DNA of 61,814 nt, taken from positions 1 through 61,814 of the forward strand of contig JASKKH010000009.1 in the NCBI GenBank assembly GCA_030154265.1, read 5' to 3'. Made by a program: the position numbers and the translations under genes. This document shows, in pieces, positions 42,617-61,402 of the stretch. Source of the DNA: Clostridia bacterium. GTDB taxonomy: Bacteria > Bacillota > DSM-521 > Neomoorellales > Neomoorellaceae. Each line of letters starts with the position of its first letter. The first letter of the stretch is position 1. The notes under the pieces are model-generated. The model ran no database searches and had not been told where the DNA came from. It was given only the letters and a program-made list of their open reading frames with translations.

Positions 42617-42790
42617 TTATAACTTAAACTTCTGCGCCAAAAGGTTCAACCTTTCCGCCAATTCTGCCTATCCCTGGGCTGGGCATTTATTTCTTCCGCA
42701 GCAGCGGAAAGTTCTTCGCTGGAATCACTTATTTCACCAGTTGTGACAATAACTTGCTTCAGTAATCTAAGGTCTTGTCTAATACTGACC
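42617..42790 (-). pseudogene. Methyl-accepting chemotaxis protein, C-terminal remnant
   Basis: Minus strand: VTTGEISDSSEELSAAAEEI and then, after a shift of frame, AELAERLNLLAQKFKL ending at TAA 42617-42619. This is the coiled-coil tail of a chemoreceptor signalling domain. The remainder has been lost; it lies directly after the larger sensor gene. Confidence 0.65.
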
Positions 42791-45085
42791 TTCATGAAAA
42801 TTTTTATCATTGTAGCAGCTGCTTTCAATAACACTTACTACCTCCGGGTCAAACTGCGTCCCCGCATTCCTTTTTATTTCAGCTATTGCTTCCTCCCTGC
42901 TCATTGCTTTCCGGTATGTCCTGTCATTGGTCATAGCATCAAAGGCGTCAGCCACGGCCAAAATGCGGCACAGCAGTGGAATTTCCTCTCCCTTCAGTCC
43001 CTGGGGATAGCCTTTGCCGTCCCAACGTTCGTGATGGCAGAGGATGTATTCAGCAATGGAAGCCAGCTCTGACGTACTTTGGGCAATGCGGTAGCCGACT
43101 TCCGGGTGTTTCTTCATCTCCTCCCATTCTTTCTCCGTCAAAGGGCCGGGTTTTAGCAGAATACTTTCCTTGATAGCCACCTTCCCGATATCGTGGAGCA
43201 CTGCCAAAAGCTCCAGCTCGTCCAGCTGTTTGTCGGTAAGCCCCAGCTCTTTTCCTGTTTTCAGGCTTAAGCTTTTTAACCTTTCGGCATGTTCCTCTGT
43301 TTCCATGCTTTTTTCAAAAAGTGTGGCCTTCAGGGATGAAATAACGGCATTTCTGTAACTTTTGCTCTGCAGAAGCTTATGGCGGTACATCCATTCCTCG
43401 GCTTCCTTCAATACCTGCCAAATGTTTTCTTCGGCTCTGATTTTTGTGGCATAGCCCAGGGCAATACTCACCTGAATGGGCCCCTCACTGTCCAAAGCAC
43501 ACTCGTTTTTAATCCTCCTGACAATTTCTTCCGCTACTTTCAAATCGGTCCGGGGCAGCAAAATGACAAATTCGTCCCCGCCCCAGCGGGCGATGATATC
43601 CTCCCGGCGGCAGTTTTTCTTTATTACCTCTGTCGCTTTCTTCAAAAGAAGATCCCCTGCCCTATGGCCGAAGACGTCATTGGTCAGCTTCAATCCGTTG
43701 ATATCACCCATGATAACCGATACAGGCAGCTGACGCGGCGTATCCAGCCGCTTGATTTCTTCTTCCATAAACCTGCGCTTGTAAAGCCCTGTCAGCTGGT
43801 CGTGATAGCTCAAAAAGAGGATTTTTTCTTCAAATTCCTTGCGCAAGATATACTCGGAAATAATCCTTGCGACAACCTGCAGTAAATCGATGTCGGCTTC
43901 AGACCATTCCCTGTTTTGAATACAGTCGTCAAAACCGATAAAGCCGTAATATTCCCCTTCTACATATACAGGCAGTACCAGCAGGGATTTGATCTCCTGA
44001 GGCCTTAAGATTTCCTTTGTCTTTTTGTCGGGAATGTCTTCAATATCCCTGTAGTTTATCACTTCCCTGTTTTTCAGCCTGTCCACCCACCAGGTAAATT
44101 CAGCCTCAGGGATTTCCTGAAGGTTTTCTTTCTGTGGCGTTACACCGGGTGCCGTCCATTCAAAGGTGTTGCTCATTATCCCTTTTTCCCTGTCTGCTTC
44201 AAAGATATAGACCCGGCTTACCCCCATTCCCTCGCCCATAAGCCGCAGGGAGTCTGCGAGAAAAACTTCAAGGCTTCTTTCCTGTAAAGCCAGCTGGGAA
44301 ACACTACTGATAAGATTTTCGTATTCCAGCCTTTTTTTGAGTTCTTCTTCGGCCTTCTTTTGCTGGGTTATATCCTTGCTGGAGCCAACCAGGTATTTTA
44401 CCTTCCCCTTTTCAAGCACCGGTGTCAGGGTGGTCAGCCAGGTTCTTTTCCCGGCAGAGAAGGGTAGGGTCTCTTCATAGGTCATGGGCTTTTTACTCTC
44501 CGCGCACCTTTGATAATTGGTACTGACGGCTTCACCAATTTCTTTTCCTGCCAGTTCTATGGGGGTTTTGTCTTTTATATCCTTCAGGCTTAACCCTGTC
44601 AATTTCTGGTGGGCAGCATTATTCCTCATGTACAGGAATTCTCCGTCTTCTACCCTGACCAGGAACATAGCATCCTGGGTACCGTTGAAAATGGTTTCCA
44701 GTTCCAGTGACTGACTTATCTCCTTTGTTATATCATAAAAAAATGTCACAAAATACCCTTTGAGGGGGGAAAAGGCATGTACCCTGTACCAGCGCTGCAG
44801 TGTCTCCTCGTACTGCTGAAATTCTATCTCTTTGCCTTCAATGGCTACGCTGGCATAAACCCTGACCCAGTCAAAAGCGCCTTCTCTGATATGAGGCAGT
44901 ACCTCGGTTACTCTCTTTCCGATAATATCTGCGGCTTTCAGGCCAGTCAGCCGTTCAAAGGCAGGATTTACTTCCAGGAACTCGTAGTCTGCGGGCTCCC
45001 CAGAATGGTTGCAGATAATACGGTGGTATGCGTAGCCTGCCGACATTTCGCGAACTAATCTCCGATAAAAAGAAAGTTCATTCAT
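42779..45085 (-). CDS. PAS-PAS-GAF-GGDEF-HD-GYP c-di-GMP enzyme
   Basis: 768 residues. Two PAS domains (about 10-120 and 125-245), a GAF domain (about 260-410, with VLPVYVEGEYYGFIGFDD), a GGDEF domain with RWGGDEFVILLP (about 415-575), and an HD-GYP phosphodiesterase (about 590-760) with HDIGKVAIKE, HHERWDGKGYPQGL and ADAFDAMTNDR. Both opposing activities have intact motifs, so it may switch between making and breaking c-di-GMP. Followed by a chemoreceptor remnant. Confidence 0.93.
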   Translation of the reverse strand: MNELSFYRRLVREMSAGYAYHRIICNHSGEPADYEFLEVNPAFERLTGLKAADIIGKRVTEVLPHIREGAFDWVRVYASVAIEGKEIEFQQYEETLQRWYRVHAFSPLKGYFVTFFYDITKEISQSLELETIFNGTQDAMFLVRVEDGEFLYMRNNAAHQKLTGLSLKDIKDKTPIELAGKEIGEAVSTNYQRCAESKKPMTYEETLPFSAGKRTWLTTLTPVLEKGKVKYLVGSSKDITQQKKAEEELKKRLEYENLISSVSQLALQERSLEVFLADSLRLMGEGMGVSRVYIFEADREKGIMSNTFEWTAPGVTPQKENLQEIPEAEFTWWVDRLKNREVINYRDIEDIPDKKTKEILRPQEIKSLLVLPVYVEGEYYGFIGFDDCIQNREWSEADIDLLQVVARIISEYILRKEFEEKILFLSYHDQLTGLYKRRFMEEEIKRLDTPRQLPVSVIMGDINGLKLTNDVFGHRAGDLLLKKATEVIKKNCRREDIIARWGGDEFVILLPRTDLKVAEEIVRRIKNECALDSEGPIQVSIALGYATKIRAEENIWQVLKEAEEWMYRHKLLQSKSYRNAVISSLKATLFEKSMETEEHAERLKSLSLKTGKELGLTDKQLDELELLAVLHDIGKVAIKESILLKPGPLTEKEWEEMKKHPEVGYRIAQSTSELASIAEYILCHHERWDGKGYPQGLKGEEIPLLCRILAVADAFDAMTNDRTYRKAMSREEAIAEIKRNAGTQFDPEVVSVIESSCYNDKNFHEGQY

Positions 45086-45315: not shown

Positions 45316-45343
45316 GACAGAATTTTTTCTGCAACCGGCTGCC

Positions 45344-45870
45344 TTAGAAAACTGGTACTGTAGGCCCTTGGCTTTGCGTCCTTGCAATATCGGCTAGAAT
45401 ATTTTCATAATTATATATTTCCGGCTTTTCACTAACAGCTTCCGCTTTTTGAGCATCATAAACATCCTCTTCTTCAAGCACTTCTTTAATAACACCATAA
45501 AAAGCCTGGGCGTTAACATTATTCTTTATTTTTTCAGGGTATACCGTTCCTAATAACCTTTCCTGAAATCCTTCATAACAGTACGCATTTTTTCAAGGTA
45601 CTCTGCTTCTGAAATACGTTTATTTTTGTACTCATTTAATACTTCTTCAATACGCTCAGAAAATTTCTTGTAGTAAGCCGGATTCTCATCCCACTTTTCA
45701 TTAATATGTTTAGCCAAACGCGTTCTAATGGCATCGGCCTTTGCCCTTGGAGAACCTAATCTCATAAGCTCATCTTCAAATTCCTCTTCGTTTAAAATAT
45801 CCACTGGAGCAGTTATTTGAATAACATCTTCTACTAAATTAAAAATAACATTTAGAAATAAAAATTAAAG
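45344..45870 (-). pseudogene. hsdR: Type I restriction enzyme HsdR, C-terminal remnant
   Basis: Minus strand: IFNLVEDVIQITAPVDILNE, then EEEFEDELMRLGSPRAKADA, KFSERIEEVLNEYKNKRIS, then a one-base shift at about 45552, after which QERLLGTVYPEKIKNN and NAQAFYGVIKEVLEEEDVYD follow. This is the helical C-terminal domain of HsdR. The helicase and nuclease parts, HsdM and HsdS are absent. It is a leftover of a lost type I system between two signalling genes. Confidence 0.75.
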
Positions 45871-46339: not shown

Positions 46340-47533
46340 TTAGGCCAATTTGCCTCGCTCTATAAGCTTTTTCATTGCTTCTACAACTGCCGGGTCAAAC
46401 TGCTTCCCGGAACAACGGCTCAATTCCTCTATCACCCACTTTTGGGAAAACGCCTTACGATAAGGCCTGTCCGAATTCATGGCGTCATAAGAGTCCACCA
46501 CCCTGATGATCCGGGCCAGAAGGGGTATCTTTTCCCCAACGATGCCTTCCGGATAACCACCGCCATCATAGTCTTCGTGGTGGTAAAGAACCGCTTCAAC
46601 TACTTCTTGGGGGAGATTCGCCGGTTCCAGGATCTTGGCTCCCACGCTCGGATGAATCCGTATTTCTTTTTCTTCTTCCGGCGTAAGCTTACTGGTCTTG
46701 AGCAGTATATATTCCTTTACTCCCACCTTTCCTATATCATGCAAAAGCCCTCCTATATAAACCATTTCCTGTTCTTTATCAGAAAGCCCCATTTCTTCAG
46801 CTACTGCCTTAGCCCACAATGCTACCCGCAGCGAATGGCCCTGGGTATACTTATCTTTTGCTTCTAACGCTGCAGCTAGCGCATTTACAACGTTCATGTA
46901 ATATTCCCGTAACGATTCGTAAAGCTGTGCGTTCTCTATTGCCAGGCCTACCTGACTGGCGATGATCGACAGGTAACCCATCTCATTTTCTTCCCGGTGC
47001 AGAGTGAAAGGCGTACATACTATCAAGGCCCCCAGTATATTTCCCCCGGCCTTGACGGGAAACACAGCAACCGACCGTATGCCATTGCTGCAATCCGGTA
47101 AACATAAAGAACCATCATAATTCGCCAGATCTTCTATTACCAGGGGCTGCCCTGTTTTCATCACCTTACCTAAGATCGTTCCTTCTGCCTGCACATGCTC
47201 AGCACTTACCTGTGAGCCCTTGCTGAGTTCCGGGCTTTGTTTCAGCACAATTTCTCCCGTTTCTTTGTCGCGCAACAGCCCCAGCGCGCACCACTTCGCA
47301 CCTACTACATCCTTCAGGCTTTTCAACGTAGTTTCAATAATCACATCCATTTCTAAACTGGAAGATATCATCTGCCCCATTTCAATAAGTTTCCTGAGCA
47401 TCGCTGCGTTTTCCTCTTGACCACGGTCAATAGCAAGGTCAAGGCTTGCACGGAGGACGCTCAAGAAGCGAGCTTCATCTTCGCCGAACTCTGCGCCTTT
47501 AGTTTTATCGTCCAATGTCAACACCCCTCTCAC
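46340..47533 (-). CDS. GAF-HD-GYP c-di-GMP phosphodiesterase
   Basis: 397 residues. The start looks like the end of a GAF domain (TLDDKTKGAEFGEDEARFLS), a full GAF follows (about 45-200), then HD-GYP (about 210-390) with GLLHDIGKVGVKE, HHEDYDGGGYPEGI and VDSYDAMNSDRPYR. An in-frame TGA about 70 bases upstream precedes more GAF-like residues without a start, so the N-terminus may be shortened by mutation. The ORF opens with GTG at 47533; a TTG shortly after may be used, since GAGAGGGG lies just before it. Confidence 0.88.
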   Translation of the reverse strand: MRGVLTLDDKTKGAEFGEDEARFLSVLRASLDLAIDRGQEENAAMLRKLIEMGQMISSSLEMDVIIETTLKSLKDVVGAKWCALGLLRDKETGEIVLKQSPELSKGSQVSAEHVQAEGTILGKVMKTGQPLVIEDLANYDGSLCLPDCSNGIRSVAVFPVKAGGNILGALIVCTPFTLHREENEMGYLSIIASQVGLAIENAQLYESLREYYMNVVNALAAALEAKDKYTQGHSLRVALWAKAVAEEMGLSDKEQEMVYIGGLLHDIGKVGVKEYILLKTSKLTPEEEKEIRIHPSVGAKILEPANLPQEVVEAVLYHHEDYDGGGYPEGIVGEKIPLLARIIRVVDSYDAMNSDRPYRKAFSQKWVIEELSRCSGKQFDPAVVEAMKKLIERGKLA

Positions 47534-47634: not shown

Positions 47635-49053
47635 TTACGATGGGGCCAAGCAAAAGTGGTTTTTCCCTTGTTTCTTCGCTTGATATAAGGACTGATCTGC
47701 CCTTTTGAGCAAGGAATCAACAGAATCACTGTTCTTTGCTAAAGCTATACCCAGGCTTGCAGTAACTTTGCAATGTGGGAAAGGATAAGTTTCTATAGAT
47801 TTTCGTATTCTTTCTGCAACTGCAACTGCACCTTCTTCTTTTGTCCCGGGAAGAATAATTACAAATTCCTCGCCTCCGTAGCGCCCCGCAATATCCACAG
47901 TCCTGATGGAGTTTTTTATTATCTCTGCCGTCTTTTGCAGCACCACATCGCCAGCTACATGACCAAAGGTATCATTGTAACACTTAAAGTTATCGATATC
48001 CAGAAAAATAACCGCCAAAGGGGTACCATACCTGATTTTCCTCTCAAGTTCATTAGCCAGTATGTTGCGCAGGGCACGCTTATTAAAGAAACCGGTCAAA
48101 AAGTCGGTTTCGGCTTCTCTTTCCAGGCGGCTTACAAGTTTTGCGTTAGCCAAAGCTATCGCAGCAAAGTTCGCATATATCTGCAGGTTTCTGGCAGCGC
48201 TGTCATCTATCGACTCAGGAGAAAACACTATACCTAACAGGCCAACAGCGCCCACAGAAGACCATAGGGGATAAAACATGATTTTATTCGCGGAATCAAC
48301 CTTCAAATCAGCAAGACCAGGTAAGGTCCTTAATTCATCAATACTCAGAAATGATGGCTCAACTTTTGAAAAAAACTTCTCCATCAACGGCTGAGCCATA
48401 GGCCATTGCTTCCCTATCAAAAGGTGGCCGTAATCACCTTTTGCCTGAGCTATCCTGATTTTACCACCCTCGTGAAGGCCAACAAAAGCCAACTCGGCCT
48501 TATATATTATGATCAGAGAATTCGTTATGAGGTCCATAACCTTATCCAATTCAACGGTCGAGGTCAGCAGGCGGCTGATTTCATAAATACTGCCCAGTTC
48601 AAGCCTTCGTAGTCCTAAAAGACTTTTTTCAAGGATGGCTTTAAGAACCTCATTGATAGTCTGGTAAATGCTGTGCGCTTTGGTGACAAAAGTATTCTCT
48701 TCTTCGCTGTCTACCCGAGGGCTTATCCTGGTAGGAGCAATGATAAGGAAGCCTATATTTTGGGCGTATGTGCCCAGGCGGTAGGCATAAAGTCTCATCC
48801 CGTAAGGACAGGTAAATGTGCCTTTATCTTCTAACGAACCAAAGATATCTTTATAAAAACGGATGCACTTCTCGTTGCAGATCTTTCCTCCTTCATTTAC
48901 CTTCCTGCATAGCTCGACTTCTCGACTGAATCGGGAAAAAGAGCCGCCGTTTATATCAAATATATAAATGTTTGCATCCATCACCTTGGCAAGAGTATCC
49001 TGAAAATCCTGCCAGTATTTTAACGAAACACTGAGTAAAAGGCTCGCTGGCAT
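47635..49053 (-). CDS. PocR-GAF-GGDEF diguanylate cyclase
   Basis: 472 residues. An N-terminal PocR-type sensor domain (about 8-130) with conserved cysteines in ELCRKVNEGGKICNEKC and FTCPYGMR, able to hold a metal or small ligand; GAF-like region (about 165-300); GGDEF (about 310-470) with RYGGEEFVIILP, an active site. Starts 11 bases after the KaiC-like gene. PocR domains often sense hydrocarbon or C1 compounds; the ligand here is unknown. Confidence 0.9.
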   Translation of the reverse strand: MPASLLLSVSLKYWQDFQDTLAKVMDANIYIFDINGGSFSRFSREVELCRKVNEGGKICNEKCIRFYKDIFGSLEDKGTFTCPYGMRLYAYRLGTYAQNIGFLIIAPTRISPRVDSEEENTFVTKAHSIYQTINEVLKAILEKSLLGLRRLELGSIYEISRLLTSTVELDKVMDLITNSLIIIYKAELAFVGLHEGGKIRIAQAKGDYGHLLIGKQWPMAQPLMEKFFSKVEPSFLSIDELRTLPGLADLKVDSANKIMFYPLWSSVGAVGLLGIVFSPESIDDSAARNLQIYANFAAIALANAKLVSRLEREAETDFLTGFFNKRALRNILANELERKIRYGTPLAVIFLDIDNFKCYNDTFGHVAGDVVLQKTAEIIKNSIRTVDIAGRYGGEEFVIILPGTKEEGAVAVAERIRKSIETYPFPHCKVTASLGIALAKNSDSVDSLLKRADQSLYQAKKQGKNHFCLAPS

Positions 49054-49064
49054 TTAGTAGCACC

Positions 49065-50468
49065 TCATCTTAATATATTTCCTTTATCTAGTTTTTCGAG
49101 GATATTTATTCCATTCGGGGTAATCTCATACTCCCTAAGGTCCTTGTTGTGGTTAATCCCACGGGCTTTAAGGATTCCTAGAACTTTTTTAATGCTTGAA
49201 TTATCTTCCACGTAGCGCAGAATGATTATATTATCTGCCATTAAGGATATTTGAGCTTTAGTTACTACTACCGGCGAAAAAAGGTCCTCGTTTAGTACGG
49301 TAAATATAGTAGTAATATGCCGCTTTTTGAGCTGCTGTCCTATCGCCCACAGATAATCTCTATATTTTTGTATATCAGAAACGCTGCTTTCAAACAAAGA
49401 TATGCTGTCGATGACAAACCTATCCACCTTATTTTTATTGACCATGTCCAGTATTTCAAAAGCATGCTTATCTATGTCCAGTTCTATTGGAGAAACAAAC
49501 TTGATATCGAGCCGACCATCTGCCAGATATTTATCCAGCTCCCATCCCAGATGGCGAGCGTTATCTATAAGTTGAGAAGCTGGCTCTTCAAAAGAAAGAA
49601 ACAGCCCATTTTCACATTTTTCAGCCCCTTCAAGTAAAAATTTAAGTGCAAGAGCGGTTTTACCCGTGCCTGTACCTCCGGAAATGAGTGTAATAGTTCC
49701 TTCTGTTAATCCACCACTCAGCATTTCGTCCAGGCCTGTGATTCCGAATCCTTTTTTCCCCGGCTTGACCTCATACTGGAGTTCTTTACCTTCCGGCTTT
49801 ATCCTCGGATATACTTCTATCCCTGCAGGGCTGATTCGAAACAGGTGCTCTCCCTGTTCAAAATTTGTCCCTCTCATCTTAAGAATGCGCAAATACCTTT
49901 TTTGAAACCTTTTTTCTTCCTGACCGTAAAGGTGGAAGATCCCATCAGCAATAGCAAATTCACTTAAAATTGTCAGTTCTTTTTCTTCATACTCACCCAC
50001 GAGAAACACAGTAACCTCCCATATCGATAAAGCAGCAGCCAGATCAAAAACAAAAGCCTTAAAAGTTTTCTCATCAGGAAAGATGTCTCTTATGGCCTTG
50101 AAACTATCGATTACAAGTATATTGGGTTGATGTTTTTTAATCATTTCGGTTAGGTACCCCAAAACCTCGTCCGTGCCCTGTTTGCGAAGAACGGCTCCCA
50201 GATCACCGTAAATAAACTTGTCCCCCAGAAAATCGTCCGAAAAAAATTCAAACTCCTGCAAATGCCTTACCATCTTGAATTGTGATTCAGATATGGTTGT
50301 CAGGTATAAACTTTTAAGACCGTTCCTTGCGCTGTTAAAAATAATGTTTTGAACGAATATCGTTTTTCCGCTGCCCGGAGAACCGGAAACTATGTTCAGT
50401 GAATACACAGGTATGCCACCATTAAGAATACCATCGAGATTCTTTATGCCTGTTTTTAATTTATCCAT
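49065..50468 (-). CDS. Double-domain KaiC/RAD55-like ATPase
   Basis: 467 residues in two KaiC-type domains. Domain 1 Walker A GSPGSGKT (about 29-36), Walker B ILVIDS; domain 2 Walker A GGTGTGKT (about 262-269), Walker B FVIDS. The paired catalytic glutamates of KaiC are present only in domain 2 (LFLSFEEPAS); the equivalent in domain 1 is LYLTTISES, so it may bind but not hydrolyse ATP well. No kaiA or kaiB is present. Lying inside a c-di-GMP operon, 3 bases after a small helical protein, it may act as a signalling scaffold and not a clock. Confidence 0.88.
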   Translation of the reverse strand: MDKLKTGIKNLDGILNGGIPVYSLNIVSGSPGSGKTIFVQNIIFNSARNGLKSLYLTTISESQFKMVRHLQEFEFFSDDFLGDKFIYGDLGAVLRKQGTDEVLGYLTEMIKKHQPNILVIDSFKAIRDIFPDEKTFKAFVFDLAAALSIWEVTVFLVGEYEEKELTILSEFAIADGIFHLYGQEEKRFQKRYLRILKMRGTNFEQGEHLFRISPAGIEVYPRIKPEGKELQYEVKPGKKGFGITGLDEMLSGGLTEGTITLISGGTGTGKTALALKFLLEGAEKCENGLFLSFEEPASQLIDNARHLGWELDKYLADGRLDIKFVSPIELDIDKHAFEILDMVNKNKVDRFVIDSISLFESSVSDIQKYRDYLWAIGQQLKKRHITTIFTVLNEDLFSPVVVTKAQISLMADNIIILRYVEDNSSIKKVLGILKARGINHNKDLREYEITPNGINILEKLDKGNILR

Positions 50469-50471
50469 CTC

Positions 50472-50840
50472 TTATTCCTCCTTCGAGTTAAATGGAATAT
50501 TTCCGAATTCTTTGTTCAGTTTCTTCGCTATTTTTTCTGTTTTTTCATGACCAATGAGCCTGGCCAGAATTTCTACATATCTGGCAATAAACTTCATGAA
50601 CATATCATCGACCGACAATTCAGGGTTTTTCTTCATACTGGCTGCTATTTCTGCACACGATATCCCACTCTCATCGAAGTGCAGCAGTTCTATTTCCCTA
50701 TATTCTTGAGAAAGATCCCACACAACCCTTTCCACCAAAAGTTTCACAGAAAACGTCCCAAGGTACTTCTCAGACGCAGTCCAAATCTCCCCCAGCAAAT
50801 TTTCATACCGCTTGATCTTCTTCTCCACTAGGCCATTCAA
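50472..50840 (-). CDS. Small helical protein next to KaiC-like ATPase, unknown
   Basis: 122 residues, mostly helices: YENLLGEIWTASEKYLGTF, KLLVERVVWDLSQEYREIEL, then MFMKFIARYVEILARLIGHE. Not recognised, and clearly not KaiB (no thioredoxin-like pattern). The stop is 3 bases before the KaiC-like start, so the two products probably interact. ATG at 50840 with GGAGGG upstream. Confidence 0.65.
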   Translation of the reverse strand: MNGLVEKKIKRYENLLGEIWTASEKYLGTFSVKLLVERVVWDLSQEYREIELLHFDESGISCAEIAASMKKNPELSVDDMFMKFIARYVEILARLIGHEKTEKIAKKLNKEFGNIPFNSKEE

Positions 50841-50937
50841 AATTATCCCTCCAAGCTTATTTTATTATAGCCTGATACAAACCCCTACAAATATTGATTT
50901 TAAGCCTGCTTTTCAAAAAAAAGCAGCCTGTACCGCG

Positions 50938-52668
50938 CTAACTTCCTTTACCAGGGCACCGCGATGGCTTTCCTAAATAGTAGCCCTGCCCGTAGCGAAT
51001 ACCTGCGTTTTTCAATACTTTAGCCACTTCACTGTTTTCTACGAATTCGGCTACTACTTCTATTGAAAGCTTCTGCAAAAGTTTTGCCATATTCTCTACT
51101 ATCATTCTTGAACGTCCGCTCCTTGTTATATCACGCACCAAAGAACCCTCAATCTTTGCAAAATAGCAGTCAAAGTATCGAAGATAAAGAAATGAAGAAA
51201 AACCGCTTCCGAAATCGTCTACTGCCAGCCGCACCCCGAGTTCTGTTAGCTCCCTGGCAAAATTGTGCACAGCATTAATATCTCTTACGGTTTCTCGTTC
51301 TGTAATTTCGGCCACAATTTCTCTCGAATCAATTCCATAGCGGTTTACCATGTCGGCTAAGAACTTTATGGTATCTCTGCTTTCTACTTCACGCATCGAA
51401 AGATTAATAAAAAAAAGTTTGTCTTTTGCCCAAGAGCTGTTTTTTTCTTTCATGGCCTGTTCTATGACTCTTTTGCCAATATCCTGCATAAGGCCGGATT
51501 TCTCAGCCGCATCTACAAAAAGCCCGGCAGAAAGAAACTTTTCTCCTCTCTTCACGCGAGCCAGCACTTCGTAACCTACAGGTTCGCCGGTCTCTAGATC
51601 TACAATCGGCTGATAGAAGGGGACTATGTCATTTTTCGAACTTAGAGCTTCTCGCAAAATAAGAATTCTCTCGTGAGTCACAGTAGGGTTTATATCGTCG
51701 CTAACCGCATCTACAACCTGCGCCCGGTTCCTTCCTTTCCTCTTGGAAGTTATACAAGCAACCTCGGCAGCCAACATAAGGTCATCTAACGCTTGTCCAT
51801 TGCGAGGGTACGAAGCAACGCCAATGCTGCTTGTAATAAAAATGCCGTCATCATCCAAAGGTTTAATTTCCATCTCAGCAATACTTTTGCATAGAAGCTG
51901 CGCCTTTGTCAGCGCTTCAGCAGGCCCCATATCCATTAATATAACCCCAAGCTCGTCATCACCTATGCGCGCAATTGCAAAAGCATCCGTGAATGACTCC
52001 TGCAAATGGGCAGCGACATTTTCAAGAACAATATCTCCTATGATATATCCATGAACATCGTTTATGAGTCTTAAATTATCAATGTCTATATAGTATAAAG
52101 AAAACTCCGTTTTTGTGTTCTTGGCAAATTCGATTGCCTGCCGCAGCTTTTCCTCAAACTTACGGCGGCTCATAAGGCCTGTCAGAACATCTACTGTTGT
52201 AAGCACTCGCCTGGTGTTGAATATCTCTCCTTCGTATCCCAAAAGATGCAGGCCAAAGTCAACAAACAATGATTTAGCACCGTACTTTAAGCTTTGTAGT
52301 TCTTTATTTGAAAAATGGCAAACTGAAGCCCGTTCGTCAAACCAACATCTGAATAAAGAGCCATAAGCTTTTATCAGCTGTTCGAGCGGTATTTCTGCAA
52401 CACCCAGCTTTCTTCCGAATTCTAAACGCCGCTTAAAGAGTTCCGGGTCATGATTCCCGGCAAACAAAGCCAATAAGTCGCTAAGTGCTTCCCTCAATTC
52501 TGCCTCGTTTGTTTCCTGCCCTGCCTGCTCAAATAAGGTTCGAAACTGGCCAACATATTCTTGCGTCAGTCTGCCGGTAGTTTCTTTCAAATTATCCAAG
52601 TCTAACTGCTCATCCCGGGATGTTAGTTCTTTAAAAAGCTCTAACATCCCCTTCTTGGGAAACCTCAC
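50938..52668 (-). CDS. GGDEF-EAL protein with degenerate cyclase motif
   Basis: 576 residues. N-terminal helical sensor (about 1-150) similar in outline to the N-terminal domain of RsbR-type proteins. GGDEF domain with IGDDELGVIL in place of GG(D/E)EF, so probably not a cyclase. EAL domain (about 340-570) with GYEVLAR (E of E-x-L), NLSMREVE, EITERE and DDFGSGFSSF, largely intact; KIE replaces KID near 510. It should hydrolyse c-di-GMP, possibly with GTP sensing by the GGDEF part. About 100 bases separate it from both neighbours. Confidence 0.88.
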   Translation of the reverse strand: MRFPKKGMLELFKELTSRDEQLDLDNLKETTGRLTQEYVGQFRTLFEQAGQETNEAELREALSDLLALFAGNHDPELFKRRLEFGRKLGVAEIPLEQLIKAYGSLFRCWFDERASVCHFSNKELQSLKYGAKSLFVDFGLHLLGYEGEIFNTRRVLTTVDVLTGLMSRRKFEEKLRQAIEFAKNTKTEFSLYYIDIDNLRLINDVHGYIIGDIVLENVAAHLQESFTDAFAIARIGDDELGVILMDMGPAEALTKAQLLCKSIAEMEIKPLDDDGIFITSSIGVASYPRNGQALDDLMLAAEVACITSKRKGRNRAQVVDAVSDDINPTVTHERILILREALSSKNDIVPFYQPIVDLETGEPVGYEVLARVKRGEKFLSAGLFVDAAEKSGLMQDIGKRVIEQAMKEKNSSWAKDKLFFINLSMREVESRDTIKFLADMVNRYGIDSREIVAEITERETVRDINAVHNFARELTELGVRLAVDDFGSGFSSFLYLRYFDCYFAKIEGSLVRDITRSGRSRMIVENMAKLLQKLSIEVVAEFVENSEVAKVLKNAGIRYGQGYYLGKPSRCPGKGS

Positions 52669-52769
52669 AAATATTCACTCCTTATCATAATCTGTCAAAC
52701 GCTCAATGTCGGTCCTTTTTTGCTTCTCTTAATGTAAGATCCTCCATCTTTTTAAGCACACTTCTCCAC

Positions 52770-53573
52770 TTATTTTTTGTCGTCTAGCTGGCCGTAAAAG
52801 ACGAGCCTGTTCTTGCCTTTTGCTTTAGCCTCATACATCGCAGCATCTGCAAATTCTATGAGCTCCTTCTCACTTAAAGGGCGATTATCCGGATACACCG
52901 CCGCACCTATGCTGGCAGTAATTTTAATCTTGTTTTCTGTAAATACTCCATCTTCTATCCGCTTTCTTATCCTCTCAAGAGGCTTTTTTGCTCCTGCACC
53001 GTCTGTTTTCGGTAACAAAATCAAAAACTCTTCTCCTCCAAACCTCATAACTTCGTCTCCATCCCTCAGACTCCTCTTGATAACACTACTTATTTCTTGC
53101 AAAAGTTGGTCTCCTATCATATGGCCGAAACTGTCATTGACATTTTTGAAATTGTCGAGATCAATCACTGCCATAGTAAGTGGTATTTTTGATTCCTGAG
53201 CATTCGCCCACATCCTTGAAAGCATTTTTTCAACTGCAAGCCTGTTATAAAGGCCTGTCAGAGGATCCCTTGCGACATTCTCTCTTAAAGACAGAAGCAG
53301 GGCATCAGTCGCAATAAGTATCTGGGCTAGGAATTCTGTAGCCCTTTCTATATATATCCACTGGACCATATCATTGTCATTTCTTATATTAAGCACATCT
53401 TTCAAAACCTGGTTGTGAATATCCAGGAGGTTTGCCGCCTGGGCAGACGACTCGTCCAGCAGTTTTACAAGATTTTGGTAAGCCTCAAACAACACATCGT
53501 CCTGACCGCCCCTTAAAATATATTTGGAAAGATAGTTTTTATACTCCGCAACAAAAAGTCCTAAGTCCTTCAA
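52770..53573 (-). CDS. Diguanylate cyclase (stressosome output)
   Basis: 267 residues. A helical N-terminal region (1-95) and a GGDEF domain (about 100-262) with DLDNFKNVNDSFGH and RFGGEEFLILLP, an active site. Its start overlaps the phosphatase gene by 4 bases, so it is part of the rsb operon. In Moorella-type stressosomes, RsbT acts on a cyclase in place of the sigma-B pathway; this gene is the likely target. Confidence 0.9.
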   Translation of the reverse strand: MKDLGLFVAEYKNYLSKYILRGGQDDVLFEAYQNLVKLLDESSAQAANLLDIHNQVLKDVLNIRNDNDMVQWIYIERATEFLAQILIATDALLLSLRENVARDPLTGLYNRLAVEKMLSRMWANAQESKIPLTMAVIDLDNFKNVNDSFGHMIGDQLLQEISSVIKRSLRDGDEVMRFGGEEFLILLPKTDGAGAKKPLERIRKRIEDGVFTENKIKITASIGAAVYPDNRPLSEKELIEFADAAMYEAKAKGKNRLVFYGQLDDKK

Positions 53574-54550
53574 AGCGATTTTCCTCCCCTTGCTATCAAA
53601 ACACTTGCATCATCTTCTTTAATTGCAAACTCCTGCAATATCTTTTCCGCTGCCTCCTCAATCTTCATCGTCTTCAGCCATTTCACGTCAGCCGCCTGAA
53701 TAAACCGCTTTTTTATGCCGTCAGTACATACAATTAAAACAAAACCCGGCGGTAAAATTTCTTTAAATATTTTTAGTCTAACAGGTGTTCTTCCAACAAC
53801 TCCATTCACTCCATTTAATTTCCTTACAGAACCGGAATTTATAAGCCATCCTTTTATATTGCCAACGTTCACGTACTCGAGCCCACTTTGGGAAACAGTC
53901 GCTAAGAAAGCCGCACAACCACGTGTGGCCTGCAATGTTTTCTCAAGACCGGCATATATTTTTTCAATATGTATTTCATTAAAATTTTTTAAGTATAATT
54001 CAATCTCCTTCGCAACAGCTCCAGCCTTTTTGCCGTGGCCGAGCACATCTGCAACAAACAGAAAATATTTGCCTCCCATCTCTTTGTAAAAGCAAATATC
54101 TCCGTTGTCTTCCTCCAGATAATGCGGTTTTGAGGCCGTTCCGACATGAAGAACAAAGCCTTTTTTCTTACGCTGCTGTGAAAGATTTAACACTGCATTT
54201 ACAACCATTCCTCCACCTGGTTTTTGCTCAATATCGAGCTTGTCGCAGTTTTTTTTAGTAACATCCAACCCTATTCCAAGACCTCTTTTTGATTTATTAA
54301 TTATGCCTTCACGATTTGCCATGCCTTCGTCCTCAGCAGAAATTATCAGCTTGTACCCCTCTCTTCTTACAGTAACAAAACCTTTTCCACCGTATTTTAA
54401 AATATTAGTGGCAAGTTCTCTTGCCACTAAAGTTACAAGAGGTGCCAAAGGCATGTCCGGACAGCTTTTTTGCAGATATTTATTGATTTTATGCTCTAAT
54501 ATGAACAGGTCTGCCTCCATCTCAATATCAACCTTCAGCCCTCCGCTCAA
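53570..54550 (-). CDS. RsbT-like kinase domain fused to SpoIIE/RsbX-type phosphatase
   Basis: 326 residues. HATPase (about 1-130): VARELATNILKYGGKG (N-box) and GLGIGLDVTKK. PP2C/SpoIIE domain (about 135-322): FVADVLGHGKKAG with the first metal aspartate, VCTDGIKKRF and EDDASVL near the end. Together these would bind RsbS/RsbR and dephosphorylate them, resetting the stressosome. It overlaps rsbT by 4 bases and the cyclase by 4 bases. Confidence 0.88.
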   Translation of the reverse strand: MSGGLKVDIEMEADLFILEHKINKYLQKSCPDMPLAPLVTLVARELATNILKYGGKGFVTVRREGYKLIISAEDEGMANREGIINKSKRGLGIGLDVTKKNCDKLDIEQKPGGGMVVNAVLNLSQQRKKKGFVLHVGTASKPHYLEEDNGDICFYKEMGGKYFLFVADVLGHGKKAGAVAKEIELYLKNFNEIHIEKIYAGLEKTLQATRGCAAFLATVSQSGLEYVNVGNIKGWLINSGSVRKLNGVNGVVGRTPVRLKIFKEILPPGFVLIVCTDGIKKRFIQAADVKWLKTMKIEEAAEKILQEFAIKEDDASVLIARGGKSL

Positions 54551-55005
54551 AATCTACGCCTCCTCTTTTCCACCACCACAACAGTACCCTTGCCCACCTC
54601 AGACTTTATATAAAAGCTGTCCATAAGTCTTCTGATACCGGACAATCCCAAACCCAAACTCCTTTGGGACGTCGTATAACCTCCGGCTACGGCTCGCTCC
54701 ACATTTTCTATGCCGGGCCCTCTGTCGTATGCAATAATTTCTATTGATATATCTTTACCTGGCTCCGTTTCTTTCTTTTTTATATAAATATACCCTTCTT
54801 TTGCATACCTGTATATGTTTCTTGAAAGTTCCGATATAGCTGTGGCTATTTTGGTGACGTCGGCAAGCGAAAAATTGTTTTTCTGGGCAAAGCTTTTCGC
54901 CATCTGTCTGGAAACTGCTATGTCATTTTCGTCTTTTATCTTTAAAACTATATCGTAATCGTGAACATTTATATCAATATCATTAAAATTTTTATCATCC
55001 ATCAT
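54547..55005 (-). CDS. rsbT: RsbT-type serine kinase
   Basis: About 152 residues from the MMDDKNFND region; ACGGAG lies upstream of the ATG cluster at 55002-55008, whereas the longer frame from 55038 has no ribosome site. HATPase motifs: AISELSRNIYRYAKEG (N-box), AYDRGPGIEN (G1) and SLGLGLSGIRRLMD (G2). It phosphorylates serine/threonine on STAS partners RsbS and RsbR; once released it activates the downstream output. Confidence 0.9.
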   Translation of the reverse strand: MMDDKNFNDIDINVHDYDIVLKIKDENDIAVSRQMAKSFAQKNNFSLADVTKIATAISELSRNIYRYAKEGYIYIKKKETEPGKDISIEIIAYDRGPGIENVERAVAGGYTTSQRSLGLGLSGIRRLMDSFYIKSEVGKGTVVVVEKRRRRF

Positions 55006-55038
55006 CATCACTCCGTCATCAAAAGCACAGTCAATCAT

Positions 55039-55404
55039 TTAATCAAGCTGGTTCAGTATATCAATAGCACCTTCCAGGCTGTTTGCTGTAAAAACATCCT
55101 TCAGTTTTATGCCCATCTGTGCAAGTGTAAGCGCCACCTGTGGTTGAATTTTGCAGATTACTGTATAACAGCCCATGGCTTTGGCCATAGCGGCAGTCTC
55201 CGAAAGCACAAATGATATGTAGCTGTCTATTACATCTACCATGCTTACATCTATAATTATTCCCCGGATTTTTCTCTCGCTTATTTCATTTAGCAGCTGC
55301 ATCTGGAGTTTTTCTATTGTTGAATCGTCCAGTTCAATCTGTATGGGGACAATCAGATAATCGTAAAGTTTTATCGTCGGCACAACCTTAGTTTTCATCT
55401 GCAT
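55039..55404 (-). CDS. rsbS: RsbS-like STAS antagonist
   Basis: 121 residues, one STAS domain. IIIDVSMVDVIDSYISFVLS holds the phosphorylatable serine region (DSYIS) typical of RsbS, and CKIQPQVALTLAQMGIKL the next strand-helix. No N-terminal sensor. It overlaps rsbR by 17 bases and ends directly at the next frame. Confidence 0.92.
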   Translation of the reverse strand: MQMKTKVVPTIKLYDYLIVPIQIELDDSTIEKLQMQLLNEISERKIRGIIIDVSMVDVIDSYISFVLSETAAMAKAMGCYTVICKIQPQVALTLAQMGIKLKDVFTANSLEGAIDILNQLD

Positions 55405-56125
55405 CCCCTCTTTTTGGGTTAGGCTGTTTTATTTCGGCGTCTTTAGCAAACTTTCTGATAGAGTACTTAAGTGCGCTTTCCAGGTCCCTCTTTATAATAA
55501 CCATATTAAAATCGATGCCGAGTTTTACAAGGGTATGGGCTATCTCCGGCTTTATGCCCGTCAGAATAACATCGCTTCCAAGAAGTTTTACGGCGGAAAA
55601 CATTTCGATCAAAAATTCCCCGACAATCGTATCTATCATAGACACGCCAGTCACATCGACAATTACAACTTTAGCCCTGGTGTCAGCGATGCTTTCAAGA
55701 AGTTTTTCAGCCATGTTCTGCGCCCTCTGGCTGTCGAGTGTGCCAATCACAGGGGCAAGAAGCACATCCTGCCACAGCTGTATAATCGGGGTGGAAAGTT
55801 CAGCAAGGGTATCATGAAGTTCTGCTATCCTCACCTGATTTTCATCATTCTTTTTCCCGAGCACTTCTACGAGTGCCTTATAAACATCGACTGCGGGAAA
55901 ATTGTCTATCTTAGTATACAAAAGTCCTATGCCGTCTGACAGTTCCTTTTCGCTTATATGCTGCAGGAGATTGGAAACAGGTGCTTTTAATTCTTCTTTA
56001 AAATCCGTTTTTCCGCAAACTTCGGCAAAATCTATCAGGAAATCCTCCCACGCCTTCTTCTGTTCATCATCTTTTGCCAGTTCCTCCACAAGTTCGCCGA
56101 GTCTTGAAATTACAAAATCTTTCAT
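55388..56125 (-). CDS. rsbR: RsbR-like STAS sensor of a stressosome
   Basis: About 245 residues from MKDFVISRLGELVEEL (GGGAGG before ATG 56125); a longer in-frame extension to 56191 covers a repeated sequence and has no better site. N-terminal helical sensor (1-120, RsbRD-like with no heme histidine pattern that I can confirm), then STAS (about 130-240) with IVDVTGVSMIDTIVGEFLIE and TGIKPEIAHTLVKLG. It builds the stressosome core with RsbS. First gene of the operon that runs to 52770 or beyond. Confidence 0.92.
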   Translation of the reverse strand: MKDFVISRLGELVEELAKDDEQKKAWEDFLIDFAEVCGKTDFKEELKAPVSNLLQHISEKELSDGIGLLYTKIDNFPAVDVYKALVEVLGKKNDENQVRIAELHDTLAELSTPIIQLWQDVLLAPVIGTLDSQRAQNMAEKLLESIADTRAKVVIVDVTGVSMIDTIVGEFLIEMFSAVKLLGSDVILTGIKPEIAHTLVKLGIDFNMVIIKRDLESALKYSIRKFAKDAEIKQPNPKRGDADEN

Positions 56126-56157: not shown

Positions 56158-56252
56158 GGTTGTATCTTTCCATTGTAATAATTCTACCCAACTACTTCTA
56201 TAAATTGTTGAGCAGGGAAGTGGGTTGTATCTTTCCATTGTAATAATTCTAC
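56158..56252. repeat. Direct repeat pair with CRISPR-like spacing
   Basis: A 30-base sequence beginning GGTTGTATCTTTCC and ending AATAATTCTAC is exact at 56158-56187 and 56223-56252, with a unique 35-base sequence between them. Repeat and spacer lengths fit a one-spacer CRISPR array, but no cas genes are in the window and it sits just upstream of rsbR, where a duplicated control site is also possible. Confidence 0.45.
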
Positions 56253-58123: not shown

Positions 58124-59050
58124 TCAATAAATAATTCTAAACTCGTTTTCACTAATCACCCTATCAACTAATTCTTCAGCTGTAAATGAGTCTTTTTCCT
58201 GCTTAATATCATACTCACTTACAAAATAAACATTAATATTACCATTTGAAGATTTGCTTATTATATCTATCATATCATTTCTATTGCTAATAATACCTTC
58301 TTTGTACATCTTATAAAGTAACGCTGCAGTTGTTAATTGATAAGGTTCACTTACATTATGGTGTTTTTTTATATATTCTTTTATACTTATCACTTGGTGC
58401 CTAATTCTAAGATCGTTACTAATCAATATGTATTTTTTACCTGAAGGAATTTTGGTAAGCACTATTATGCATATGAAGATTAATTCTTCTGCTAAACTAT
58501 CGCCCTCTTCTTTTAAAGATCTAGCATATCCAAAAAAATTACTATACAACTCAGTCTTTCCAGGCTCAAGACTTTTTAATTTATTGGCAACTCTCTTATC
58601 CATTGAATTTAAAACTTCATAAGTTTTTGTTTTGAATTTGCTTACTTCTTTTACTGCAAAACCAAGTAATTTATTCGCTTCTTCTATAGTGATATTTAAT
58701 ATTTTTTTCAAACAAGCAAGTATAATTTCTTCATTGAATAGCAAGATACATAATCCATTATCATATAATTCTTTTAAGAAATTGATTTGCACTTGATGTA
58801 ACTCAAACGAATTAGCTGTTAACTCCATTAAAACTGTTCTCGTAATAATTATAATAGCTGATTTACTTTTCAAAAATTCAATTATATAATATCTATTCTC
58901 AGTATTTGAATGATGTAGAATTGAACAGGTATCATAGAAAAAATATTTTTTTCCTTTAAAAAATGCATCAATAACCTCTTGTTTTTTATATATTAAATAG
59001 TTTTCAAAATCTTTAAAATTCGAAGGAACCTCCCTGTACTTTTTTGCCAT
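58124..59050 (-). CDS. PIN-like nuclease domain protein, candidate toxin
   Basis: 308 residues. KKYFFYDTCSILHHS (about 33-47) has the first PIN aspartate; TRTVLMELTANS (about 71-82) the conserved glutamate; KKYILISNDLRIRHQV (about 207-222) a later aspartate in a strand-turn, the order expected in PIN ribonucleases. Extra helices make it larger than VapC (about 130). It begins 1 base after the peptidase stop. As the last gene of an XRE-ImmA/IrrE operon it is most simply a toxin or effector; no experimental family comes to mind. Confidence 0.65.
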   Translation of the reverse strand: MAKKYREVPSNFKDFENYLIYKKQEVIDAFFKGKKYFFYDTCSILHHSNTENRYYIIEFLKSKSAIIIITRTVLMELTANSFELHQVQINFLKELYDNGLCILLFNEEIILACLKKILNITIEEANKLLGFAVKEVSKFKTKTYEVLNSMDKRVANKLKSLEPGKTELYSNFFGYARSLKEEGDSLAEELIFICIIVLTKIPSGKKYILISNDLRIRHQVISIKEYIKKHHNVSEPYQLTTAALLYKMYKEGIISNRNDMIDIISKSSNGNINVYFVSEYDIKQEKDSFTAEELVDRVISENEFRIIY

Positions 59051-59051
59051 T

Positions 59052-59846
59052 CTATTTTTCCAACCTTATTTTAGAATATAATATTTTAATACGTTCAATT
59101 ATTTTATTAAAATTATATTCAGATATTAACTGCTCTTGAATAAGTTGGGTTCCTTCATTGTTAAGCATTTCAAAAACAAAAGGCATTTCATCTTTTAATG
59201 ATGGCTTTAGTATTTCTTTATCCAGCCAAAGCTTATCAAACAATTTTTCTACATCATCATTATTATATTCTAGCAAATTTTTTACAGCATCTATTTCTTG
59301 CAATATATTTAATTCATACAGTCGTATTAGGACTGCAACAAATGTAGAACTAAAATAATTCATCAATTTTGCCACTATAATTTCGATAGAATTATTATCT
59401 TCTCTGTATAATTCATACATTTTTTTAAACTCGACTTCTGGCATTAACAAATTTGCAGCAAAAAGATTTGCCTTACCTTCATTATCATTAGAAGTATAAT
59501 CCTGATTTAAATGTACTTCCCTTTTCTCATTGATATAATCTGGAGTTCCATTCAAAATATGATAAATATCATGACAGAACGAAAAGTACATTTTATTCCT
59601 AGGTTGATTAGAGTTTAGTAACAAGTATTTACTATATCCTGTTTCTAAAAACACTGCACCAAATTCAGGATCATTCATTGGAATTTCAATAATAAAAACA
59701 TCTAATTTCCTTCCAATTTCTTTCATTATCTTAGGAATATCTCCATCCCATTGAACACGATCACGAAATATTTTTAGTGATTCTTTTACATCTTTTTCGT
59801 ATTTCCTATTTCTGATTATAATTTCTCTAAACCTCTTAAATTCCAT
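59052..59846 (-). CDS. ImmA/IrrE-family metallopeptidase
   Basis: 264 residues. FCHDIYHILNG (about 90-100) supplies an HxxxH zinc site (the glutamate of HExxH is aspartate here), and NEGKANLFAANLLMP (about 121-135) the third ligand region typical of the family. Members cleave repressors or antitoxins and free downstream genes. Its start overlaps the XRE gene by 11 bases and it is followed directly by the PIN-like gene. The HDxxH variant could lower catalysis. Confidence 0.82.
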   Translation of the reverse strand: MEFKRFREIIIRNRKYEKDVKESLKIFRDRVQWDGDIPKIMKEIGRKLDVFIIEIPMNDPEFGAVFLETGYSKYLLLNSNQPRNKMYFSFCHDIYHILNGTPDYINEKREVHLNQDYTSNDNEGKANLFAANLLMPEVEFKKMYELYREDNNSIEIIVAKLMNYFSSTFVAVLIRLYELNILQEIDAVKNLLEYNNDDVEKLFDKLWLDKEILKPSLKDEMPFVFEMLNNEGTQLIQEQLISEYNFNKIIERIKILYSKIRLEK

Positions 59847-60219
59847 AATCTAAAACCTCAAGAGCATCCTTTTTTAACTTCTTACGAATACCAAGAATCG
59901 CATCAATATGTTCAAGAAAATCAAAAACATTATTTGCTAGTTCTTTCTTACTTTCATCTGCGGTTCCCATATAAAATGCAATAGAAGTAGAATCTTTATA
60001 ATCTGTAGAGAATAAGTCTAAATTTTCTTGCATAAAATAACTTATGTCTTTACCGAGAACTTTCGAAATAGTATACATATCTTCATATAATATGTCTTGT
60101 TTTTTGTTTAAGAGACGAGAAAACTTATTCTTTTCTATACCAGTTTGTTTTATAATAAACGATTTTTTTATACCATAATGATTAATATACTTATTTAAAT
60201 TATTAATAAAGTCTCCCAT
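59836..60219 (-). CDS. XRE-family helix-turn-helix regulator
   Basis: 127 residues. HTH region KKSFIIKQTGIEKNKFSRLL (about 18-37) and ISKVLGKDISYFMQ; the C-terminal half is helical and acidic. AAGGAGG precedes ATG. It probably represses the operon and is the substrate of the adjacent peptidase, as in ImmR/ImmA of ICEBs1. First of three tightly packed genes. Confidence 0.85.
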   Translation of the reverse strand: MGDFINNLNKYINHYGIKKSFIIKQTGIEKNKFSRLLNKKQDILYEDMYTISKVLGKDISYFMQENLDLFSTDYKDSTSIAFYMGTADESKKELANNVFDFLEHIDAILGIRKKLKKDALEVLDYGI

Positions 60220-60416
60220 TAAAATCCCTCCTTCTAAATATATTATATCATAAAATGATATTTGTATTCAAATTTTCTAACATCATTAATCATTTAATCT
60301 TTTTCGTGCTATCTTTCCTAAAAGATTGTATCATTATTTGATACTAATTTCAACCTCTCATTATTCATATATTCAAAAAATCTCAAAAATGTTACTTAAA
60401 TAATTCACTTTGCGTT

Positions 60417-61402
60417 CTACCTTCCACCAGCAGTTCCCATATACTCAAACTTATATTCAGGAATTTCAAAGATCACATGCAGTCGTTTAGATCCGATCAT
60501 CACAAGGGCATTACCCTTTTTCTTACTGGCTAATAATTCTTCTTCAGCATCCGTAAGGTTATAAAGCTCCTTTGTTTCAAGAAGATTTTTACCATCACAT
60601 CCCATCAGAATTTTAAAGCATGGAATATCTAAAAGGGCTTGACCATACATTTTAATCTGCGGATCTAAAAAATCTCCAACACTATGAAAAATAATGACTA
60701 TACCAGCTTCATATTTTCTTGCTCGTTTTTCAACACTCCTAAGAAAAACAAGACTTTGGGGCACGCACATTGGGATCAATCATAAGATACGCCTCATCAC
60801 AAATTAATAAGACTCGCTCATTTCGCTCCTTACTCATCTGTTGCCAGCACCAGGTCAATAGATTGAAATATTGCGTTCTCTTAATGCTATCTGAAGTATT
60901 TTGAAGATAATGGGTATCTAAGCAAATGCATCTTGTATTTGTCTGAATAGTGCTATGACCATTCCAAAGAAAACTGTCTGAACCAAGAGCAATATCCTTA
61001 AGTAGTAAGGCCAAATCGGCATAAACATTTTGCTCTACTTCTTTTCTTGTTTTCTCTTTTTCTTCAGCTTTCTTTACAATAAGATCATATAAATCCTTGA
61101 ATATTGGAAATTCCTCATTTTAAGCTTTGATACATTAGTATTCCAAGTGATATTGAAATTGTGATAAAGCCAATGAGTGTATCTTTTAAGATCGCCTTTT
61201 GCATATCATTTAATGAAGGTAAATACAGACTAAAGAAAATCTCTAAGTTCTTGATATAAAGAGCCATATCTCCCATACCGTGTCCTTCATCTTTGTAAAT
61301 ATCATCATTTCCATCAACAGGAGTTGGCCGAATCTGTAAAGGATTAATCCTACCATTTGATCCACCACCTGCATTAATCCAAAATGTCTCTACTGCAAAC
61401 AC
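60417..61402 (-). pseudogene. VirB4-like conjugation ATPase, frameshifted C-terminal part
   Basis: Pieces in three frames: NAGGGSNGRINPLQIRPTP (61350 region), a shifted stretch near 61190-61130, then EEFPIFKDLYDLIVKKA, ALLLKDIALGSDSFLWNGHS, RVLLICDEAYLMIDPNV (Walker B DE), a one-base shift near 60765, and QSLVFLRSVEKRARKYEAG to MGTAGGR. The order is that of the VirB4/TrbE ATPase of Gram-positive conjugative elements. The N-terminal P-loop is missing; the fragment abuts the IS30 element at 61403-61420. Confidence 0.82.

Follow-up and report, generated by a model that had tools for sequence, protein, structure and literature searches.

A stressosome operon beside a KaiC-like ATPase and cyclic di-GMP enzymes in a Clostridia bacterium: a candidate transferable signalling island

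The stretch of DNA analysed here (the window) is an entire contig of 61,814 nucleotides (JASKKH010000009.1, our C44) from a Clostridia bacterium whose draft genome (GCA_030154265.1) comprises 1.99 Mb in 70 contigs. The family of this genome (f1) takes in Moorella stamsii, which has been placed in the Neomoorellaceae, as well as M. mulderi. Ten consecutive minus-strand open frames (56125 to 46340) run from an RsbR-type protein to a GAF–HD-GYP protein and encode a stressosome, a KaiC-like ATPase and enzymes of cyclic di-GMP (c-di-GMP) turnover. The order of Pfam matches is STAS, STAS, HATPase_c, HATPase_c plus SpoIIE (PP2C), GGDEF, GGDEF plus EAL, none, KaiC twice, PocR plus GGDEF, and GAF plus HD_5:

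55388..56125, minus strand: RsbR-type scaffold/sensor, helical N-terminus and STAS (Pfam STAS, E value 1.6e-15, residues 119–218)
55039..55404, minus strand: RsbS-type core, STAS only (Pfam STAS, E value 2.6e-14)
54547..55038, minus strand: RsbT-type switch kinase (HATPase_c, E value 1.7e-10)
53570..54550, minus strand: HATPase plus PP2C (SpoIIE/RsbX-type) fusion (SpoIIE, E value 1e-10; HATPase_c, E value 9e-5)
52770..53573, minus strand: stressosome-linked diguanylate cyclase (DGC), putative divergent RsbU_N four-helix domain and GGDEF (GGDEF, E value 5e-44)
50938..52668, minus strand: GGDEF-EAL protein with helical N-terminus (EAL, E value 1e-57)
50472..50840, minus strand: p122, small helical protein of 122 residues, first gene of the triad (AF2 model, pLDDT 86.7)
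49065..50468, minus strand: double-domain KaiC-like ATPase (PF06745 twice, E value 3e-84)
47635..49053, minus strand: PocR-(GAF-like)-GGDEF cyclase, third gene of the triad (GGDEF, E value 1e-46; PocR, E value 2e-7)
46340..47533, minus strand: GAF-HD-GYP phosphodiesterase (HD_5, E value 5e-36; GAF, E value 8e-16)

The computed overlaps are 17 bases for RsbR/RsbS, 0 for RsbS/RsbT, 4 for RsbT and the HATPase–PP2C fusion, and 4 for the fusion and the DGC; after the DGC the genes are separated, in order, by 101, 97, 3, 11 and 101 bases. Open frames, Pfam matches and junctions bear out a first-pass annotation which had placed the stressosome, cyclase and KaiC genes here with the first four of these junctions, and its RsbT-RsbX-type fusion is a single frame with HATPase_c and SpoIIE (PP2C) matches. 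It had also called the stressosome fused to the KaiC-like ATPase, which is wrong, as these are separate neighbouring genes. All the genes that it listed are present, but it ended the locus too early, as the island extends to the HD-GYP protein at 46340. Its label PocR-GAF-GGDEF holds by Pfam for PocR and GGDEF, but the middle domain has no Pfam match to GAF and is read as GAF-like both there and by us.

The genes for RsbR, RsbS and RsbT overlap or abut in one array, the arrangement by which a stressosome locus was recognized. Orthologues of RsbR are found in 10 other loci; the IDT and AHT motifs are present in intact RsbR, and Asp60-Ser61 of RsbS is invariant in the alignment. We take Ser61 to be the counterpart of B. 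subtilis Ser59 and likewise equate the putative phospho-acceptor positions of RsbS and RsbR with S59, T171 and T205 of that species. The HATPase–PP2C fusion has an 87% identical copy in locus L032, while elsewhere the PP2C half occurs alone. Both the DGC and the PocR-GGDEF cyclase have GGEEF and RxxD (the I-site) intact. In the GGDEF-EAL protein, a predicted phosphodiesterase, GGDEF is degenerate (GDDEL) and EAL has its EVL and DDFG motifs; searches with its N-terminus gave no match and no support for a non-haem globin, as one reading of the sequence had it. The GAF-HD-GYP protein, whose gene position differs among genomes, retains HDIGK and HHE...GYP. Of the 16 GGDEF matches in the genome, which include fragments, 5 lie within 12.5 kb at the island. 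Directly upstream of rsbR (56170-56250, minus strand), TAGAATTATTACAATGGAAAGATACAACC was seen by eye to occur twice, ~67 bases apart.

The KaiC triad and its exchangeable effector

Relatives of the KaiC-like protein with 62–90% identity are present in about 22 other genomes. In every full-length KaiC locus (at least 60% identity), p122 lies directly upstream and a PocR-GGDEF gene directly downstream, so that the constant partner of KaiC is the downstream PocR-GAF-GGDEF protein and not the stressosome. Decay of the triad is seen in M. stamsii, where the third gene has a 248-base deletion (L030 11840), in genome G350, where p122 is split, and in G133. The p122 sequence has no Pfam or NCBIfam match, its model has no fold match in the PDB, and a search of phage families gave no p122. 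A weak PDB match (2bnl; E value 0.11), which had made p122 a candidate RsbR-type globin sensor, was lost with a broader profile.

Beyond these close relatives the third gene changes. In G318 and G339, a distant KaiC (~42% identity) is preceded by a p122 homologue and followed by a sensor histidine kinase, and the p122 proteins of the DGC-triads and the kinase triads are homologous (hhalign probability 98.7%; E value 2.5e-16). The third gene encodes a kinase with a receiver domain in G448 and Desulfonauticus, and a PAS-HD-GYP protein in G424, where no p122 was seen; by locus, the effector is a histidine kinase in L075, L076, L120 and L044, and HD-GYP in L121. On proteobacterial plasmids (L122, L123), a small hypothetical protein that weakly resembles p122 is followed by KaiC and then by a kinase or GGDEF-kinase. 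The KaiC triads thus form a wider family with varying effectors, mostly preceded by a small protein. Plasmid carriage of close KaiC relatives was considered and dropped, the plasmid KaiC proteins being at most 33% identical. Archaeal KaiC-like ATPases beside histidine kinases have reportedly been named ‘signal transduction hubs’; in these and the plasmid systems, the order of small protein, KaiC and kinase or effector is the same as in the island, which differs in that the effector is PocR-GAF-GGDEF.

Our main argument is that, because the small protein and KaiC are constant while the output varies, KaiC would act on the product of the third gene. The triad thus resembles a switch run by KaiC whose output, a cyclase in the island, can be exchanged. 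A coupling of ATP state to c-di-GMP output through KaiC, as the first-pass annotation proposed, is still something that we infer, but it is better grounded now that its constant partner proves to be a PocR-GAF-GGDEF protein, swapped elsewhere for a histidine kinase or an HD-GYP protein.

Linkage of the triad to the stressosome

The triad and the RsbR-S-T-X-DGC-EAL genes are contiguous on one strand in nine genomes from several families of thermophilic and other anaerobic bacteria. Besides the window, these are G388 (cyclase mostly deleted), M. stamsii, G008, G023, Desulfotruncus alcoholivorax, G311, Desulforamulus putei and Ch29 (cassette partial). The adjacency therefore recurs in eight further genomes, and in two more, Desulfovirgula sp. 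and Desulfofundulus, the two parts are ~5 kb apart, with FeoB-like genes of the opposite strand in between. The first-pass annotation, which would have been refuted by adjacency in this genome alone, survives this comparison. Three orders occur, namely stressosome-triad (window, G388), triad-HDGYP-stressosome (M. stamsii, G008, Desulfotruncus, G311) and HDGYP-triad-stressosome (G023, Desulforamulus putei, Ch29).

The RsbS tree has two lineages, divided by a 100/100 branch of length 0.96. Lineage A includes the window, G388 and Ch29, with the HATPase–PP2C fusion in the first two; the remaining linked genomes belong to lineage B, with a plain RsbX. Both lineages have triad-linked members and members without a triad nearby. 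In Ch29, a type-A RsbRST comes after a type-B RsbR, and the stressosome beside the triad seems to have been displaced in place.

Among 398 sampled genomes of the phylum, 14 carry the triad marker (p122, E value < 1e-40) and 22 the island RsbS family. Both were found in 9 of the 14 triad genomes against 0.77 expected (P 1.4e-9; by family, 3e-7), these P values disregarding shared ancestry and transfer. Both parts are known from 11 whole genomes, and 6 of these have them as contiguous blocks, for which random placement (<10 kb, same strand) gives a P of about 1e-12, likewise disregarding shared ancestry and transfer.

Desulfotruncus and G311 belong to different families, and their islands are 94% identical over the compared part; judged by such DNA comparison, the island is one that has been transferred between families. 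Between Desulfotruncus and D. putei, identity is 83% at the triad and 92.6% in the stressosome-EAL DNA, which argues that the halves have separate histories. Some carriers show local damage: in G311, rsbT is interrupted by an insert of ~1.7 kb (L067 15690-17377) within the otherwise 94% conserved island; in M. stamsii, the first cyclase is shortened and a second cyclase copy follows it (L030 16677-20622); and in G350, rsbR has its first 48 codons attached, out of frame, to the central part of GGDEF-EAL, beside a p122 copy (L069 8263-9667), the triad with the split p122 lying 32 kb from this junction (L069, L070).

A proposed two-module switch and its alternatives

We propose, with a probability of roughly 0.55, a transferable signalling island whose two switch modules, the stressosome and the KaiC triad, set the c-di-GMP level. 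The observed base of this model is the gene content, the conserved triad, the repeated linkage, the effector swap, the catalytic motifs and the riboswitches described below. In the first module, RsbR and RsbS would retain RsbT, which stress would release; freed RsbT would switch on the small cyclase by binding its RsbU_N-like domain, as suggested by analogy with the Moorella cyclase MtG. The PP2C fusion would reset the stressosome, and the GGDEF-EAL protein would degrade c-di-GMP. In the second module, a KaiC ring with its small partner p122 would be an ATP-dependent switch gating the PocR-GAF-GGDEF cyclase, a contact suggested by the constancy of the triad and the effector swap; in relatives, the p122-KaiC pair would gate a histidine kinase instead. 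The HD-GYP protein would serve as a second phosphodiesterase. Both modules would converge on one c-di-GMP pool.

The layout of the first module is known from Moorella thermoacetica, whose stressosome MtR-MtS-MtT-MtX is associated with the cyclase MtG (Quin et al. 2012, as cited in PMC12143880 and PMC4976288). In both systems, RsbR-S-T-X precedes a GGDEF protein, with RsbU_N at the N-terminus of MtG and a putative RsbU_N in the window. MtG is described with a GAF between RsbU_N and GGDEF, whereas in the 267-residue window cyclase Pfam found no GAF between these domains and RsbU_N is divergent. The cassette of G006 matches the Moorella layout, its cyclase has a GAF match, and its RsbS is only 35% identical to that of the window and belongs to another lineage. 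The KaiC triad, GGDEF-EAL and HD-GYP proteins do not figure in the Moorella system as these citing papers describe it, and the combination of stressosome, KaiC and c-di-GMP enzymes, which the first-pass annotation had considered new, was not found in the open-access papers searched. In BcsE (PMC7439463), a c-di-GMP-sensing regulator of cellulose secretion, a RecA-like domain has been compared with KaiC; the c-di-GMP pathway is shared, and the island differs in having a KaiC ring beside cyclases.

RsbU_N (PF08673) was scored in 7 of 12 homologues of the window DGC (best E value 7.5e-4), and the match of its N-terminus to RsbU in the PDB is weak (E value 0.6). The N-terminus is modelled as a four-helix bundle, and the model compares with KaiA C-terminal chains at TM 0.60-0.61 (Foldseek E above 3). 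According to PMC11372060, RsbU_N and KaiA have a common fold, and KaiC binds KaiA at a place equivalent to that proposed for RsbT on RsbU. The DGC N-terminal model resembles this fold of the KaiA C-terminal and RsbU N-terminal domains, although the window DGC is without the response-regulator part of KaiA. By analogy, the domain might bind both RsbT and KaiC, which would compete for or jointly gate one cyclase, an idea that we regard as a long shot. If true, the domain would be a living link for a likeness of RsbU and KaiA that has hitherto been a structural curiosity; the presence of RsbT, KaiC and a cyclase with a putative RsbU_N side by side makes it testable whether fold likeness means a common binding mode.

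Several observations weigh against the two-module model. The window DGC itself scores below the Pfam cut-off for RsbU_N (E value 0.031). Gaps of 97 and 101 bases part the blocks of the window, so that two or three transcripts across the island are possible, and promoter and terminator scans of the window were near shuffled expectation. In loci L034 and L037, opposite-strand FeoB-like genes sit between triad and stressosome, and in G007, G288 and G055 the two parts are separated by 75 kb, by 38 kb or by lying on different contigs. M. mulderi has the triad without the 7.9-kb HD-GYP-stressosome-EAL block, its DNA being 98% identical to that of M. stamsii at the triad and 98.6% past the far end of the block. 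No RsbS of the island type was found in M. mulderi, G003, G010, G022 and G350, and the triads of M. mulderi, G003 and G022 speak against an obligate coupling to the stressosome. The linked label switches at least six times along the KaiC tree, a number close to that in shuffles; judged from this tree, the linkage is thus gained and lost readily, i.e., it is favoured and not obligatory.

These data also bear on the most serious alternative, which we consider less probable than the two-module model but quite plausible, namely co-location without physical or regulatory coupling. The island would then be a mobile hot-spot collecting c-di-GMP enzymes, held together by shared selection for transfer or by a common global output. 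That the island crosses families, that further GGDEF genes adjoin it at 40.9-45.1 kb, that M. mulderi has the triad alone while G012, G013 and G014 have the stressosome-DGC alone, and that linkage is labile would all agree with this. A hot-spot accounts less well for the repeated coming together of one small set of genes, in three orders and beside stressosomes of two lineages, for Ch29, where the slot by the triad appears to have been refilled, or for a co-occurrence which also holds by family.

A Kai-type timekeeper, in which a rhythm of KaiC phosphorylation would drive a daily c-di-GMP output, is very improbable. The nearest PDB chains of the KaiC-like protein are KaiC, and it shares with circadian KaiABC a double RecA-type ATPase with Walker A in both halves, the FEE pair of CII, and S408 as counterpart of S431. 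Altered c-di-GMP is also reported to change the Synechococcus clock (PMC13001216). However, the T432 counterpart is L409 (both positions are invariant in nine aligned sequences), the catalytic FEE of CI is replaced by T-x-S-E (family-wide, T-x-[S/G]-E-[P/S]), and no match to KaiB was found in the genome. For these three reasons we conclude from its sequence that the protein is not a canonical clock KaiC; the island KaiC has, instead, p122 and a cyclase as invariant partners. The named relatives of the source organism are, in addition, anaerobes without photosynthesis. An earlier reading of CI as a dead ATPase was withdrawn because its single Glu, E61, is invariant throughout the wider KaiC family. 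Chance adjacency or misassembly, for which one might cite the 70 contigs of the draft, is refuted by the same neighbourhood in independent assemblies, e.g., the single-contig chromosome of G311 and a 1.2-Mb contig of G008.

The island, in our two-module reading, suggests an undescribed signalling switch joining two known and hitherto separate systems. Non-cyanobacterial KaiC proteins are common, mostly without known output; that of the island is paired with a constant small protein and has a recognizable enzyme, a cyclase here and a histidine kinase elsewhere, as its likely output, which makes KaiC signalling beyond clocks directly testable. Two cultured carriers, M. stamsii with the stressosome block and M. 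mulderi without it, offer a natural comparison.

Neighbouring genes and riboswitches

Downstream of the island lie two further features of the c-di-GMP pathway:

45327..45396, minus strand: c-di-GMP-I riboswitch candidate (Rfam RF01051, 37.5 bits against a gathering score of 35)
42779..45085, minus strand: PAS-GGDEF-HD-GYP protein (open frame; GGDEF match)

The riboswitch candidate (45396-45327), which appears without one helix of the family model, is ~240 bases before the PAS-GGDEF-HD-GYP gene and is followed by a terminator-like hairpin (45309-45286). The protein is probably associated with the island but outside the mobile unit. The genome has eight c-di-GMP-I riboswitches, and the other seven (L111-L117) are stronger than this one. 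Their neighbours, read by eye, include flgB/flgC/fliE-like, prepilin-peptidase/TadE-like, PilC-like, chemoreceptor-like and HD-GYP genes; the flagellar, Tad/type IV pilus and chemotaxis genes that these riboswitches precede are probably outputs of c-di-GMP. Searches for riboswitches elsewhere returned none in the island region of the window (E up to 1) or upstream of p122 in seven related loci at gathering thresholds. A candidate terminator between the EAL and p122 genes (50936-50923) scored no higher than shuffled expectation, and a promoter of the triad's own was set aside because the upstream DNA is conserved in close relatives alone.

The FeoB-like genes are split in L034, L037 and the window, where the pair (8047-10211) is ~36 kb from the island, and L119 has one downstream of KaiC; their recurrence is perhaps chance. 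On the other side of the island, the low-GC stretch 58124-61014 carries, by eye, metallopeptidase/repressor-pair-like genes and fragments of a conjugation ATPase, and is possibly a mobile element adjoining the island.

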